Of a stretch of 64,000 nt of DNA, positions 20,495 through 26,189 are shown in pieces. Position numbers and translations under genes: made by a program. The stretch is from NCBI RefSeq assembly GCF_900119795.1, contig NZ_LT634361.1:3085001-3149000 (forward strand), in the 5' to 3' direction. The notes under the pieces are model-generated. The model ran no database searches and was not told the DNA's origin. It saw only the letters and a program-made list of their open reading frames with translations. Position 1 is the first letter of the stretch. Every line of letters starts with the position of its first letter. Source of the stretch: Tenacibaculum maritimum NCIMB 2154. GTDB taxonomy: Bacteria > Bacteroidota > Bacteroidia > Flavobacteriales > Flavobacteriaceae.

Positions 20495-23338
20495 TTATTT
20501 CAATTTTTTCTTAACAGCAACTTCTTCATAAGCCTCTATAATATCTCCTTGTTTAATATCGTTAAATCCTTTGATTTGAATCCCACAATCATATCCTTTT
20601 GCAACCTCTTTTACATCATCTTTAAACCTCTTTAAGGCAGCTAGTACTCCTGTGTGAACTACAATACCATCTCTAATAATTCTTATCAATGAGTTTCTAA
20701 AGATTTTACCAGACATTACCATACACCCTGCAATATTTCCTACTTTAGATATTTTATAGATTTCTCTAATTTCAACATTACCTCTCACTTCCTCTTTCAT
20801 ATCTGGAGATAACATTCCTTCCATTGCATCTTTTAATTCATTGATGGCATCATAAATAATAGAGTATGTTCTAATATCTACTTCTTCTCTGTCAGCAATT
20901 GCTCTTGCATTACCTTGTGGACGCACATTAAATCCAATAATGATTGCATCTGAAGCAGACGCTAGTAACACATCTGACTCTGTAATAGCTCCAACTCCTT
21001 TGTGTAATATATTAACTTGGATTTCTTCTGTTGATAATTTCTGGAACGAATCTGTTAAGGCTTCTACCGATCCATCAACATCTCCTTTCAAGATAATATT
21101 TAATTCTTTAAAGTCTCCTAATGCTATACGACGACCAATTTCATCTAGTGTTAAGGTTTTTTGAGTTCTTACAGACTGCTCACGTTGCAATTGAGAACGT
21201 TTAGATGCTATTTGCTTCGCCTCTCTTTCATCATCAAATACATTGAACTTATCTCCTGCCTGAGGCGCCCCATCCAATCCTAATATTGATACTGGAGTTG
21301 ATGGCCCCGCTTCTTTTAAATTCTTCCCTTTATCATCAAACATTGCTCTTACTTTTCCGCTGTGTTTTCCAGCCAATAAGTAATCTCCAATTTTCAATGT
21401 TCCTGCCTGTACCAAAATTGTAGATACATACCCTCTACCTTTATCTAACAAAGCTTCTACAACTGCTCCTGTTGCATTTTTATTTGGGTTTGCCTTTAAT
21501 TCTAATACTTCTGCTTCCAATAATACTTTTTCTAGTAACTCATCAATTCCTTGCCCTGTTTTTGCAGAAATTTCTTGCGACTGAATATTACCTCCCCAAT
21601 CTTCTACTAATAAATTCATAGCAGATAATTGCGTTTTAATATTATCGGGATTTGCATTTGGCTTATCAATCTTATTTATTGCAAATATAATAGGGACTCC
21701 TGCTGCTTGTGCATGAGAAATAGCCTCTTTTGTTTGCGGCATCACATCATCATCAGCTGCCACTACAATAATTACCAAATCTGTTACCTGAGCTCCACGA
21801 GCACGCATTGCCGTAAAGGCCTCGTGACCTGGAGTATCTAGAAATGCTATTTTTTGCTCTCCTACATTTACTTCATAAGCACCAATATGCTGTGTAATTC
21901 CACCTGATTCACCTTCAATTACATTTGCTTTACGAATATAATCTAACAGAGACGTTTTACCATGATCAACATGCCCCATTACTGTAATGATTGGTGCTCG
22001 ATGTATTAAATCTTCCGGTCTATCTTCTACTTCTTCTATTGCTTCTTCTACCTCTGCTCCTACAAACTCTACTGTATAGTTAAATTCTTCAGCTACAATT
22101 GATAATGTTTCAGCATCTAGACGTTGGTTCATTGTCACCATCATTCCTAACATCATACAAGAAGATATAATATTTGTTACAGGAACATCCATCATAGTAG
22201 CTACCTCACTTACGGTAACGAACTCTGTAACCTTTAAAATCTTACTTTCTGCCTGCGCCGCTTGTAACTCTGCTTCATTCTGCTGACGATGCGCATCTCT
22301 TTTATCTCTACGATATTTTGCTCCCTTTCCTTTTTTAGATTTACCTTGAAGTTTTTCTAAAGTTTCTCTTACCTGCTTTTGTACTTGTGCTTCTGTTAAT
22401 TCTTCTTTCTTAACAACAGGACCTCTTCCTCTTTGTCCGCCACGATTTCCGCCACGATTTCCACCACGGTTTTGAAGCGGTCTTCCGACGCCTCCTGATC
22501 TTGATCCTCCTGTAGAAGGCTTACTTATCCTCTTACGTTTCTTCTTTGCATCATCATTGCTCTTTGCCTCTGGCTTTTTCTTCTTAGGTCTTTCAAATTG
22601 TTTTAAATCAATTTTTTGACCTGTTATCTTAGGTCCATCTAACTTCTTATACTGAGTTTTAATTTTCTCAGCATTTTCAGGAGTGATCTCCACCTTCGGC
22701 TTCTTCTTTTCCACCTTAACTTCTTTCTTTACCTCTGGTTTTGTTACTGCTACCTTTTTGGGTTGTTCTTTCACAGGGTTCTTTATTTCAACCTCTTTAG
22801 AGACTTCTTTAATAGGCTCTTTTTTAGGTTCTTCTTTCTTTACTGGAGTTCGAACCACCTCTGGCTTTGGTGCCGGTTTTGGTGCTTCTTCTTTAGGCTT
22901 TTCAATAACTTTATCTATTATTGGCTTTTCCTCTACTTTAGGTATCTCTTTCACCTCTGGTTTCTCTTCTTTTTTAGAAGTTCCATCGATATCAATCTTA
23001 CCTACAGTTTTTATTTCTAGCTTTTCTACTTTCGTTCGAAAAACTTCTTTTTTAGCTTCTTCTTCTAAACGTTTCTTTTCTTGCTTGGCCTCTAATTCTA
23101 AACGAATTGCTTCCTTTTCTTTTCTTTTTTCTTCCCCAACTTCTTTAGAAGCTACTTTTTTCGATTTATCTGTTTGGAAACCATCAAGCAACACTTGATA
23201 CTCTGCATCTGAGATTTTTGTAGTAGGACGAGCCTCCACTTCATAACCCTTTTTAGCCAAGTGTTCAATTGCTCTATCTAAAGAAATATTTAATTCTCTT
23301 AAAACCTTATTTAGTCTTAATTTTCTAGCTTCAGCCAT
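20495..23338 (-). CDS. infB: Translation initiation factor IF-2
   Basis: 947 residues. IF2_N domain at the start ([21 protein letters not shown]), a long Lys/Glu/Pro-rich linker (~60-300), then a G domain with [11 protein letters not shown] (~454-464), DTPGHEAF and [10 protein letters not shown], followed by the EF-Tu-like and C-terminal fMet-tRNA-binding domains. IF-2 brings initiator tRNA to the ribosome. It is the last gene of rimP-nusA-infB. The linker is typical of the phylum. Confidence 0.97.
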
Positions 23339-23464: not shown

Positions 23465-24721
23465 TTATTCTTCAAATTCGTCTTTTAAAATTTGCTGAAC
23501 ATCTATAATCGTTTCCTCTTCTAAATCAGTTCTTTTTACCAATTCAGCTACATTCTGTTCAAGCACACTTTTGGCCGTATCTAAACCAATTTTCTTAAGC
23601 TCTTGGATTACCCATGCTTCAATTTCATCAGAGAACTCTGTTAACTCTACATCTTCTTCTTCAATTCCTTCTCTTTGCACATCTATTTCATACCCTGTCA
23701 ATTGACTAGCTAAACGAATATTAACTCCTCCTCTACCAATTGCTTTAGATACTTCTTCTGGCTTCAAGAAAACATTTACACGTCCTTTTCTTCCGTCTTT
23801 CTCTTCTTCATAAGGTTTTATTTCCATTGAGCTTACTTTTGCTGGACTTAAAGCTCTTGCTATAAATAGCTGCTCATTTTTGGTATAATTGATAACATCT
23901 ATGTTTTCATTTCCTAATTCACGAACAATACCATGGATACGAGACCCTTTTACCCCAACACATGCTCCTACAGGATCAATTCTATCATCATAGGAATCAA
24001 CAGCTACCTTTGCCTTTTCTCCTGGAATTCTTGCGACCCCTTCAATGGTTATTAACCCATCAAAAACCTCAGGAATTTCTTGTTCAAACAATTTAACTAA
24101 AAAGTTTGGTGAGGTTCTTGACAAAATAATAGCAGGTTTATTTCCTCTTAATTCTACTGATTTTATCACCCCTCTCACAGCATCTCCTTTTCTAAAGAAA
24201 TCAGAACGAATTTGCTCACTTTTTGGCAATACAATTTCATTTCCTTCATCATCTAACAAAATTACTGCATTATGACGAATATGATGTACCTCTGCACTAT
24301 ACAGATCTCCTTCTAACTGCTTAAACTGCTTAAATATATTAGTGCTATCATGCTCATGTATCTTAGATATTAGATTCTGACGCAATGCTAAGATAGCTCT
24401 TCTTCCTAAATCTATCAACTTAACTTCTTCAGAAACATCTTCACCTATTTCAAAATCAGGTTCTATCTTTCTTGCTTCTGCTAACTCTATCTCTTCATTA
24501 TCATCTTCTGAAAAACCATCAGCAACAACCACACGATTTCTCCAAATTTCTAAATCTCCTTTATCTGGATTAATAATAATATCAAAGTTATCATCAGACC
24601 CAAACTTACGTTTTAAGGCAGCTCTGAAAACCTCTTCTAAAATAGACATTAACGTAACCCTATCTATACTCTTATTGTCTTTAAAATCTGAAAATGATTC
24701 TATTAACTCAATATTTTCCAT
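23465..24721 (-). CDS. nusA: Transcription termination/antitermination factor NusA
   Basis: 418 residues: N-terminal RNA-polymerase-binding domain, S1 domain (~130-200), two KH domains (GVKGSRIHGIVRELGNENIDVI and AIGRGGVNIRLASQLTGYEID) and a short acidic tail without the repeats of the E. coli protein. It acts on pausing and termination. Starts 8 bp after rimP. Confidence 0.97.
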   Translation of the reverse strand: MENIELIESFSDFKDNKSIDRVTLMSILEEVFRAALKRKFGSDDNFDIIINPDKGDLEIWRNRVVVADGFSEDDNEEIELAEARKIEPDFEIGEDVSEEVKLIDLGRRAILALRQNLISKIHEHDSTNIFKQFKQLEGDLYSAEVHHIRHNAVILLDDEGNEIVLPKSEQIRSDFFRKGDAVRGVIKSVELRGNKPAIILSRTSPNFLVKLFEQEIPEVFDGLITIEGVARIPGEKAKVAVDSYDDRIDPVGACVGVKGSRIHGIVRELGNENIDVINYTKNEQLFIARALSPAKVSSMEIKPYEEEKDGRKGRVNVFLKPEEVSKAIGRGGVNIRLASQLTGYEIDVQREGIEEEDVELTEFSDEIEAWVIQELKKIGLDTAKSVLEQNVAELVKRTDLEEETIIDVQQILKDEFEE

Positions 24722-24729
24722 TTCACTCT

Positions 24730-25194
24730 CTAGTTAAATATGATTTTCACTTTTGCTTCTTTAATTTCTGTGTACGATAACAATTGTTCTTTTTCTACTG
24801 TTACCTTACCTTTCCCTATTGGTTTTGGCTCTCTAGCCTTCCATTTCAACACAATCTCATTTTCATTCACTTCTGCGAGCACCCCTTCAAAAGAGTCGTT
24901 CTCTGTTTTAACCTTTAATATCCTTCCCAAATTCTTTTTATATTGTCTTTTCATTACCAAAGAATGAGAGATGTCTGGCGAAGTAACTTCTAAAGAAAAA
25001 TCTTCCTCTTCTCTATCTAGATTATGCTCTATATTTCTACTAATTCTAATACATTCTTTCAAAGAAACTCCTTCATCTCCATCAACAATAACTTTTATTT
25101 TATTATCTGATAAAAAAGACAAATCAATTAAAAATAATGATTCGTTTTCACTCAAGGCTTCTTCTAGTAATTCTTTTACTTTGGACTGGTTCAT
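24730..25194 (-). CDS. rimP: Ribosome maturation factor RimP
   Basis: 154 residues with the RimP pattern: VIVDGDEGVSLKECIRISRNIEHNLD in the N-terminal half and the SH3-like C-terminal half (ILKVKTENDSFEGVLAEV). It assists 30S subunit maturation. First gene of the conserved rimP-nusA-infB operon. Confidence 0.95.
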   Translation of the reverse strand: MNQSKVKELLEEALSENESLFLIDLSFLSDNKIKVIVDGDEGVSLKECIRISRNIEHNLDREEEDFSLEVTSPDISHSLVMKRQYKKNLGRILKVKTENDSFEGVLAEVNENEIVLKWKAREPKPIGKGKVTVEKEQLLSYTEIKEAKVKIIFN

Positions 25195-25228
25195 TGTAGG
25201 TATAAAAAGAGGGGACTTTCCGTCCCCT
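25195..25228 (-). terminator. Hairpin plus U-tract in the rimP leader, possible attenuator
   Basis: On the minus strand AGGGGAC (25228-25222) pairs with GTCCCCT (25216-25210) across a 5-base loop, followed by CTTTTTATA and then the rimP ATG at 25194. This looks like an intrinsic terminator inside the leader of the operon that encodes NusA. Confidence 0.6.
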
Positions 25229-25255
25229 TCATTTTCTTTTACTTTATTTTCAGTG

Positions 25256-25287
25256 CAAATATAGCAACTTATTCATTAATATACAAA
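25256..25287 (-). promoter_or_regulatory. Promoter of rimP-nusA-infB
   Basis: Minus strand TATATTTG (25263-25256) is a perfect TAnnTTTG core with a TTG 20 bp upstream (25286-25284). Transcription would begin near 25250, giving a ~55-nt leader that contains the hairpin at 25210-25228. Confidence 0.65.
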
Positions 25288-25358: not shown

Positions 25359-26189
25359 ATGGAAAAAATACTAGTCCCTGTAGATTTCTCGAAACCATCT
25401 GAGTATGCTTCAAAAATCGCTTCAAAGATTGCTAAGAAAGCAAATAGTGAAATTCACTTACTCCACATGATAGAACTCCCTAGTGGAATCATAGACATGG
25501 GATCTGGAGCCAACTTCAGTATTCCTCAAAGTATGCTATACATTAGAAAAGTACGTGACCGACTGATCCATTACAAAAGCTTATTTTTTTCAAAAAATAA
25601 TGATGTAAAACACGCTATACGTTTTCAAAATCCTTATGAAGGAATTCGCGATTACGGCAACAAGATAAATGCCGATTTAATTATCATGGGCTCTAAGGGT
25701 CATACAGCCATAGAAGAGATTTTAATTGGTTCTAATACCGAGAAAGTAGTACGAAATTCAGAAAAACCCGTTCTGGTCGCAAAAAGAGATGAAAAGAATT
25801 TTAATCCTAAAGATTTAATTTTCGCTTCAAGTTTTGAAGAGGATCAAAAACGAGCTTTTGAAAACTTTTTGGCATTCTCTAGCAAATTTAAAAAGAGTAA
25901 AATACACCTATTAAAAATAAACACTCCTCATAAATTTGAAAGTTCTCAATTTTCTAGAAAACGTATAGAGAGTTTTATCAAAGAATATGAGCTCCCTAAA
26001 TATTCTATAAATGTGTATAATGACGCTTCTGTTGAAGAGGGAATTTTGAATTTTTCTGATGAAATTGATGCGGATATCATTTCTTTAAGCACCCATCAAA
26101 GAAGTGGTATATCTCATATTTTTAATGGTAGCGTTAGCAAAAACCTCTCTAAAAAAGCGATTAGACCAATGCTTACTTTTAAAGCTTAG
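25359..26189 (+). CDS. Universal stress protein with two Usp domains
   Basis: 276 residues. First Usp domain 1-~143 with ILVPVDFSKPSEYA at the start and the nucleotide-binding type loop MGSKGHTAIEEILIGSNTEKVV; a second, more diverged domain ~150-276 ending STHQRSGISHIFNGSVSKNL. Two-domain Usp proteins are common in Bacteroidota. It stands alone and divergent from rimP. Its stress cue is unknown. Confidence 0.9.
   Translation: MEKILVPVDFSKPSEYASKIASKIAKKANSEIHLLHMIELPSGIIDMGSGANFSIPQSMLYIRKVRDRLIHYKSLFFSKNNDVKHAIRFQNPYEGIRDYGNKINADLIIMGSKGHTAIEEILIGSNTEKVVRNSEKPVLVAKRDEKNFNPKDLIFASSFEEDQKRAFENFLAFSSKFKKSKIHLLKINTPHKFESSQFSRKRIESFIKEYELPKYSINVYNDASVEEGILNFSDEIDADIISLSTHQRSGISHIFNGSVSKNLSKKAIRPMLTFKA

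Follow-up and report, generated by a model that had tools for sequence, protein, structure and literature searches.

The window analysed here, a 64,000-nt stretch of the Tenacibaculum maritimum NCIMB 2154 genome, carries rimP, nusA and infB as an operon on the minus strand behind a short leader (Table 1). Read along that strand, the leader region consists of a TTTG element, a 20-nt spacer, the -7 box TATATTTG, 27 nt, a hairpin, a U-run and rimP. Promoters of Bacteroidota carry an upstream element of the TTTG sort, and transcription would start about 5–7 nt past the -7 box. With transcription beginning at that distance, the leader length of ~55 nt given in the original prediction is right to a few nucleotides. 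The prediction also described a promoter and a promoter-proximal, terminator-like hairpin with a U-run in the rimP-nusA-infB leader, and these are what we read from the sequence; its placement of the end of the U-tract 15 nt before rimP applies instead to the end of the stem, as the U-run ends 9 nt before the rimP ATG. The form TAnnTTTG follows the name given to the flavobacterial -7 box in PMC9723704.

Table 1. Features of the rimP-nusA-infB locus, in positions of the window.
Feature	Position	Strand	Description
TTTG upstream promoter element	25284..25287	-	Read from sequence, 20 nt upstream of the -7 box
-7 box TATATTTG (TAnnTTTG)	25256..25263	-	Read from sequence
Terminator-like hairpin AGGGGAC-GGAAA-GTCCCCT	25210..25228	-	7 pairs, loop GGAAA
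C-UUUUU directly 3' of the stem, then AUA	25204..25209	-	C25209, five U 25208-25204
Leader, -7 box to rimP, hairpin within	25195..25255	-	Exact transcription start inferred
rimP, operon gene 1	24730..25194	-	Pfam RimP_N 2.5e-8; ATG 25194-25192
nusA, operon gene 2, candidate feedback regulator	23465..24721	-	Pfam NusA_N and KH domains
infB, operon gene 3	20495..23338	-	Pfam IF-2 and related domains
Universal-stress-protein gene	25359-26189		Divergent, upstream of rimP

The operon's NusA has the polymerase- and RNA-binding domains. It aligned to solved NusA over residues 3–349 and to 2asb, which we take to be the RNA-binding NusA of M. tuberculosis, over residues 157–350. About 70 further residues lie past the part that aligns to solved structures (3–349 of 418), and these presumably resemble one helix-hairpin-helix repeat. 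The closest RimP proteins among the named genomes, a list from which the genome's own record may be absent, were those of Tenacibaculum at 72–78% identity. A 97-codon ORF on the plus strand (24971–25264) runs antisense over the leader and the start of rimP and is probably there by chance.

Within the window by itself, the hairpin is no more than chance would produce. A terminator scan of 15 kb of the window returned 8 sites, the leader hairpin among them, compared with a shuffle mean of 7.8, and the leader fold was only moderately stable, at z = -2.2, a value equalled or exceeded in stability by 9 of 200 shuffles. As the hairpin does not stand above chance within the window, the case for it rests on comparison. 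Across the 3.44-Mb genome, the pattern AGGGGACN{3,8}GTCCCCT occurs at a single place (reversed control, 0). Among 173 gene 5' regions from 464 kb of the genome, with genes taken from a crude frame caller, 26 contained a terminator-like hairpin, and two contained one with TAnnTTTG 5–45 nt upstream, rimP being one of the two. The only other promoter-proximal hairpin in these 464 kb (L281, near 3418) lies 6 nt past a TAnnTTTG box.

We compared leaders from the genus and order, the family, a set of named genomes, the class, and other classes of the phylum. Family loci came from 30 of 186 matching genomes, and the named set was the best 80 of 562 confirmed matches, taken as family and near relatives, one of which is labelled Cloacimonadota. 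The class leaders were those of all 105 matches that fell outside both the family and the order, plus four further class genomes. The leaders from other classes were the 26 best-scoring of 88 matches, with one dropped as too short, and are not an even sample.

A hairpin followed directly by a U-run, no more than 220 nt ahead of the RimP match, was found in 261 of 268 distinct leaders, compared with 53 of 536 dinucleotide shuffles and with 82 of 268 leaders on the opposite strand. All leaders of the genus (23/23), the family (28/28), the named set (75/75), other families of the order (8/8) and other classes (25/25) had this combination, as did 102 of 109 from other orders of the class. In seven leaders (L012, L033, L159, L182, L243, L253 and L258), the best hairpin of the scan was a neighbouring one, and the rimP-type hairpin was seen by eye. 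The exact GGGGAC/GTCCCC stem was present in 20 of 23 genus, 22 of 28 family and 66 of 75 named leaders, in four of eight from other families of the order, in 50 of 109 from other orders of the class, and in none of the 25 from other classes. As a string, GGGGACN{3,8}GTCCCC occurred in 157 of 199 family genomes, at one place only in 142 of the 157, while its reversed control occurred in 55 of 199, at most six times per genome. Among 75 string sites listed, 59 lay ~17–86 nt upstream of rimP and four elsewhere, the remaining 12 being in genomes without a listed rimP place. A nusA match was found in 205 of 206 loci tested. On these comparisons, the leader hairpin is real and widespread in our sample of the phylum. 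The original prediction had proposed conservation of the hairpin as a check and a lack of it as a counterargument, and the latter outcome is excluded.

The stem is nearly invariant in the family and the named relatives and, judging by the pairs in our folds, changes compensatorily further from the family, with the G-rich 5' arm kept within the class. Among genus, family and named hairpins with paired GGG, 105 of 123 had GGGGAC/GTCCCC and 13 more had G-U variants of it. Positions +4 to +7 past the stem core were T in all 123 motif-bearing leaders (of 126 genus, family and named leaders). The 24 nt on the 5' side of the stem were A-rich and variable except for the base adjoining the stem. In class members from other families, stem pairs 4–6 were drawn from G-C, A-U, C-G, U-A and G-U. 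Of the 23 distinct combinations of inner triplets in Bacteroidia, 14 were fully complementary, a number reached by none of 2000 shuffles (mean 2.6). We note that the GGG/CCC anchors and the pairs in this analysis were taken from folds, which favour pairing, and that hairpins were selected for paired GGG, the shuffles serving as the control; the pair counts drew nothing from a MAFFT alignment of 46 hairpins, in which the G-rich arm was ragged. The loop varied in length from 3 to 8 nt, which argues against a dyad for a DNA-binding dimer, a candidate we rejected.

The polarity of the stem was also strongly skewed. Paired GGG on the 5' arm was found in 224 of 236 Bacteroidia hairpins (123/126 family and named, 101/110 other class), and part of those without it are other hairpins chosen by the scan; outside the class, it was found in eight of 25. 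In 232 of 236 Bacteroidia leaders, G outnumbered C on the 5' arm. By comparison, among the 63 gene-end terminators of this genome, 32 had a G-rich 5' arm, 22 a C-rich one and nine were ties, and the 25 hairpins outside the class divided into 14 G-rich, nine C-rich and two ties. The seven leaders read from family f28, which lies outside the class, showed the mirror polarity, with a C-rich 5' arm (CGCCC...GGGCG; L151, L155, L156, L158, L165, L166 and L168). Measured against the same 63 gene-end terminators, neither the U-run nor the hairpin energy was weaker than is ordinary in this genome, and NusA dependence is therefore not readable from them. The idea that a weak U-run marks NusA dependence, taken from PMC8060035, was unsupported by this comparison.

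The position of the hairpin relative to the promoter varied little. Of 236 Bacteroidia leaders with a hairpin, 229 had a TAnnTTTG box upstream of it at a distance of no more than 90 nt, compared with five of 25 outside the class and 116 of 1305 shuffles. Among 112 family and named leaders (the 126 less 14 without the strict motif), the distance from the -7 box to GGGG was 28–30 nt in 80 and 26–33 nt in 110, the other two having 22 and 1 nt. The distance from stem to start codon spanned 14–120 nt, counted from GTCCC, which is two bases short of the stem end in the window; it was 14–22 nt in 93 leaders and 27–120 nt in 19. The promoter distance is kept even in those leaders where the start codon lies farther off, which points to a transcriptional element. 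This argument rests on the 19 leaders, because in the other 93 the distance from stem to start codon is similar as well.

We looked for other elements in the leader that could sense a signal. The stretch 5' of the stem was mostly unstructured, folding below -3 kcal/mol in only three of 214 leaders. Before the hairpin, CCC was found in none of 124 family and named leaders and GGG in three, so that on the upstream side there is little able to compete with the stem. No upstream antiterminator, aptamer or conserved leader peptide was seen in the leaders examined. There was no Rfam match at the gathering score at the locus, and the rimP family RF01770 was absent from the locus matches even at E up to 10. 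Genome-wide, with 150 of 626 candidates scored, RF01770 gave 38 weak matches, all of which stayed below the cut-off and lay away from the locus. Weak Rfam matches obtained at relaxed thresholds in the window and 10 class loci did not reach their cut-offs and had no evident relevance.

Attenuation upstream of rimP has been described in other bacteria. The original prediction held that control of nusA is not well described in this phylum, a statement that needs the context of three earlier reports: the rimP-leader, B. subtilis nusA and an element at F. psychrophilum rimP. The rimP-leader attenuator was published in 2010 by Naville and Gautheret, with NusA proposed as effector (PMC2965389). As described there, it precedes the same operon and consists of a terminator hairpin with a G-rich 5' arm, a C-rich 3' arm and a U-stretch, 4–130 nt from the gene, a range that includes the 15 nt of the window. 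The description gives no larger conserved element or visible antiterminator, and none was seen upstream of the stem here. Its stem is given as GGGc/gCCC, with c/g directly past GGG; GGGGAC/GUCCCC is the stem in the window and in half of the class, so that in the window GGG is followed by G-C, A-U and then C-G, and other class members have GGGGGC, GGGCC and further forms. The GGG 5' arm, the CCC 3' arm and the G-rich polarity of the Bacteroidia hairpins match the signature in PMC2965389. To judge from its agreement with the description, the Bacteroidota hairpin belongs to the already published rimP-leader kind. Unlike the published rimP-leader, the leader here is short and has near-fixed promoter spacing. 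The main text of PMC2965389 does not mention Bacteroidetes by name, but its species are listed in supplements, so the phylum may be included there.

In B. subtilis, nusA is reported to be controlled by NusA-stimulated termination in its own leader (PMC12288461). A nusA-operon leader with intrinsic termination is predicted likewise here, and it has ~55 nt compared with 180 nt for B. subtilis rimP (ylxS; PMC2965389). Terminators t1 and t2 lie upstream of rimP in E. coli (PMC6511841); together with RF01770, which had no match at our locus, they concern the same gene group. Within the family of the window and at the same gene, F. psychrophilum has a structured 5' element upstream of rimP that is also found in other Flavobacteriaceae genera and has no Rfam hits (PMC9723704). 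The account of this element in PMC9723704 gives no mechanism, and the element is probably the hairpin described here. We found no termination or NusA data for the phylum in the literature searched.

These results suggest that the hairpin is probably a promoter-proximal intrinsic terminator that attenuates rimP-nusA-infB under NusA feedback, as the Bacteroidota form of the rimP-leader. Polymerase would start at the TAnnTTTG promoter and make ~20–25 nt of unstructured RNA, after which the GGGGAC/GUCCCC hairpin and the U-run would be transcribed. Part of the polymerases would then release an RNA of ~45–50 nt at the U-run, and the rest would read through into the operon. NusA, bound both to the polymerase and to the G-rich arm of the hairpin, would most likely raise the released fraction, and with plentiful NusA the operon would throttle itself. 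Both termination itself and its stimulation by NusA are extrapolated from other bacteria. In the leaders we observed a common anatomy, its conservation, compensatory changes in the stem, near-fixed promoter spacing and no alternative sensor. With this anatomy, a signal would most likely act at the terminator itself and at the polymerase along with the factors bound to it, and since NusA is encoded in the operon, is reported to control its own gene in B. subtilis and has been proposed for the rimP-leader, we take NusA feedback as the likeliest signal. The sequence comparisons support the view that a promoter-proximal hairpin, conserved with its promoter and U-run and with no other sensor seen, has the look to be expected of a factor-sensed attenuator.

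The main rival is a promoter-proximal terminator of fixed rate, which would cut output by a set factor without sensing NusA, the ratio of promoter strength to read-through being what is conserved. Such a terminator would account for the conserved U-run and GC-rich stem, for the lack of a sensor seen outside the hairpin and for a stability like that of gene-end terminators. Its stem could, however, change freely, yet the 5' arm is G-rich in 232 of 236 leaders versus 32 of 63 gene-end terminators, and a NusA response is reported for the leader of B. subtilis (PMC12288461); we regard a fixed rate as unlikely. Distinctly less likely, in our assessment, is attenuation by some other factor, such as RimP, IF2, a ribosomal protein, NusG or an early state of the polymerase (sigma retention, NTP or (p)ppGpp) acting at a near-fixed distance from the promoter. 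The promoter-to-stem spacing (26–33 nt in 110/112) is consistent with this explanation and RimP feedback is also raised in PMC2965389, but we found no positive evidence for any of the factors named. We note that rimP and nusA occur side by side in almost every locus tested, and linkage therefore cannot separate RimP from NusA.

As a further alternative, the stem could shield the 5' end of the mRNA or mask the ribosome site without termination, as might be expected from a stem that ends 15 nt from the start codon in the window, with the start at 22 nt or less in 93 of 112 leaders. We consider this improbable given that the U-run is present in 123 of 123 leaders and that 19 of 112 starts lie 27–120 nt off while the promoter distance holds. 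It is highly improbable that the hairpin terminates a divergent neighbour or an upstream transcript and is irrelevant to rimP. The inverted repeat is also terminator-like on the plus strand, but the form on the other strand was found in 82 of 268 leaders versus 261 of 268, and 229 of 236 Bacteroidia hairpin leaders have the TAnnTTTG box upstream of the hairpin and no more than 90 nt from it. We give almost no credence to leader-peptide attenuation, a riboswitch or a T-box. In the window, ATG AAG GGG begins a 13-codon frame through the stem. Counting ATG starts only, such a frame crosses the stem in 44 of 124 family and named leaders and is missing from the other 80, which refutes a leader peptide as the general mechanism. 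A riboswitch or T-box aptamer before the terminator was rejected on the lack of an Rfam match at the gathering score and on a pre-stem stretch that hardly folds (3/214).

A small number of class leaders lack the hairpin. The scan missed seven of 109, and by eye two of these have a stem with a poor U-run and five have no stem. The scan match in a further leader, L256, was spurious and involved a different hairpin, making it the sixth leader without a rimP hairpin. These six (L205, L219, L224, L233, L254 and L256) come from f80 (3/3 genomes, including L256), f87 (2/2) and G368, and rimP and nusA are still adjacent in all six genomes. The f80 and f87 genomes have the five lowest NusA identities (42%–43%) among 118 genomes. 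Hairpin loss along with NusA divergence would fit the loss of a partner site, but this co-divergence is only suggestive, because InfB scores are also among the lowest in f80 and f87 and G368 has no hairpin yet an ordinary NusA (58%). In f80, the -7 box is only ~6 nt ahead of the likely start codon. As a tentative and rather doubtful proposal, the Bacteroidia leader could be a minimal attenuator in which the hairpin itself is the sensor, with NusA reading the GGG/CCC stem on polymerases at a near-fixed distance of ~29 nt from the -7 box in early elongation and no aptamer, antiterminator or leader peptide involved. On this view the NusA rheostat would be ancient and common to the phylum, and it would have been lost in the families whose NusA diverged (f80 and f87).

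In both E. coli and B. subtilis, NusA is an essential protein whose feedback control has been studied. What our comparison adds to the known rimP-leader is how far it extends in the phylum, that its spacing from the promoter is near-fixed and that it has no antiterminator upstream of the stem. The comparison also probably ties the unexplained F. psychrophilum 5' element to a named attenuator class. A leader made of a promoter, ~22 nt, a hairpin and a U-run, retained in most of the phylum sample, offers a simple test bed for how NusA chooses terminators, and in Bacteroidota it may also serve to read out NusA activity.

Elsewhere in the genome, we observed thirteen near-identical palindromic intergenic repeats of ~80 nt, spaced 1–8 kb apart (G000 contig 1, 2930982–2965254; L316 and L317). 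In L316, the frames between the repeats are short pieces of RHS core whose tails vary, with small frames downstream. This arrangement resembles an array of orphan Rhs-type polymorphic toxin tips and immunity genes.
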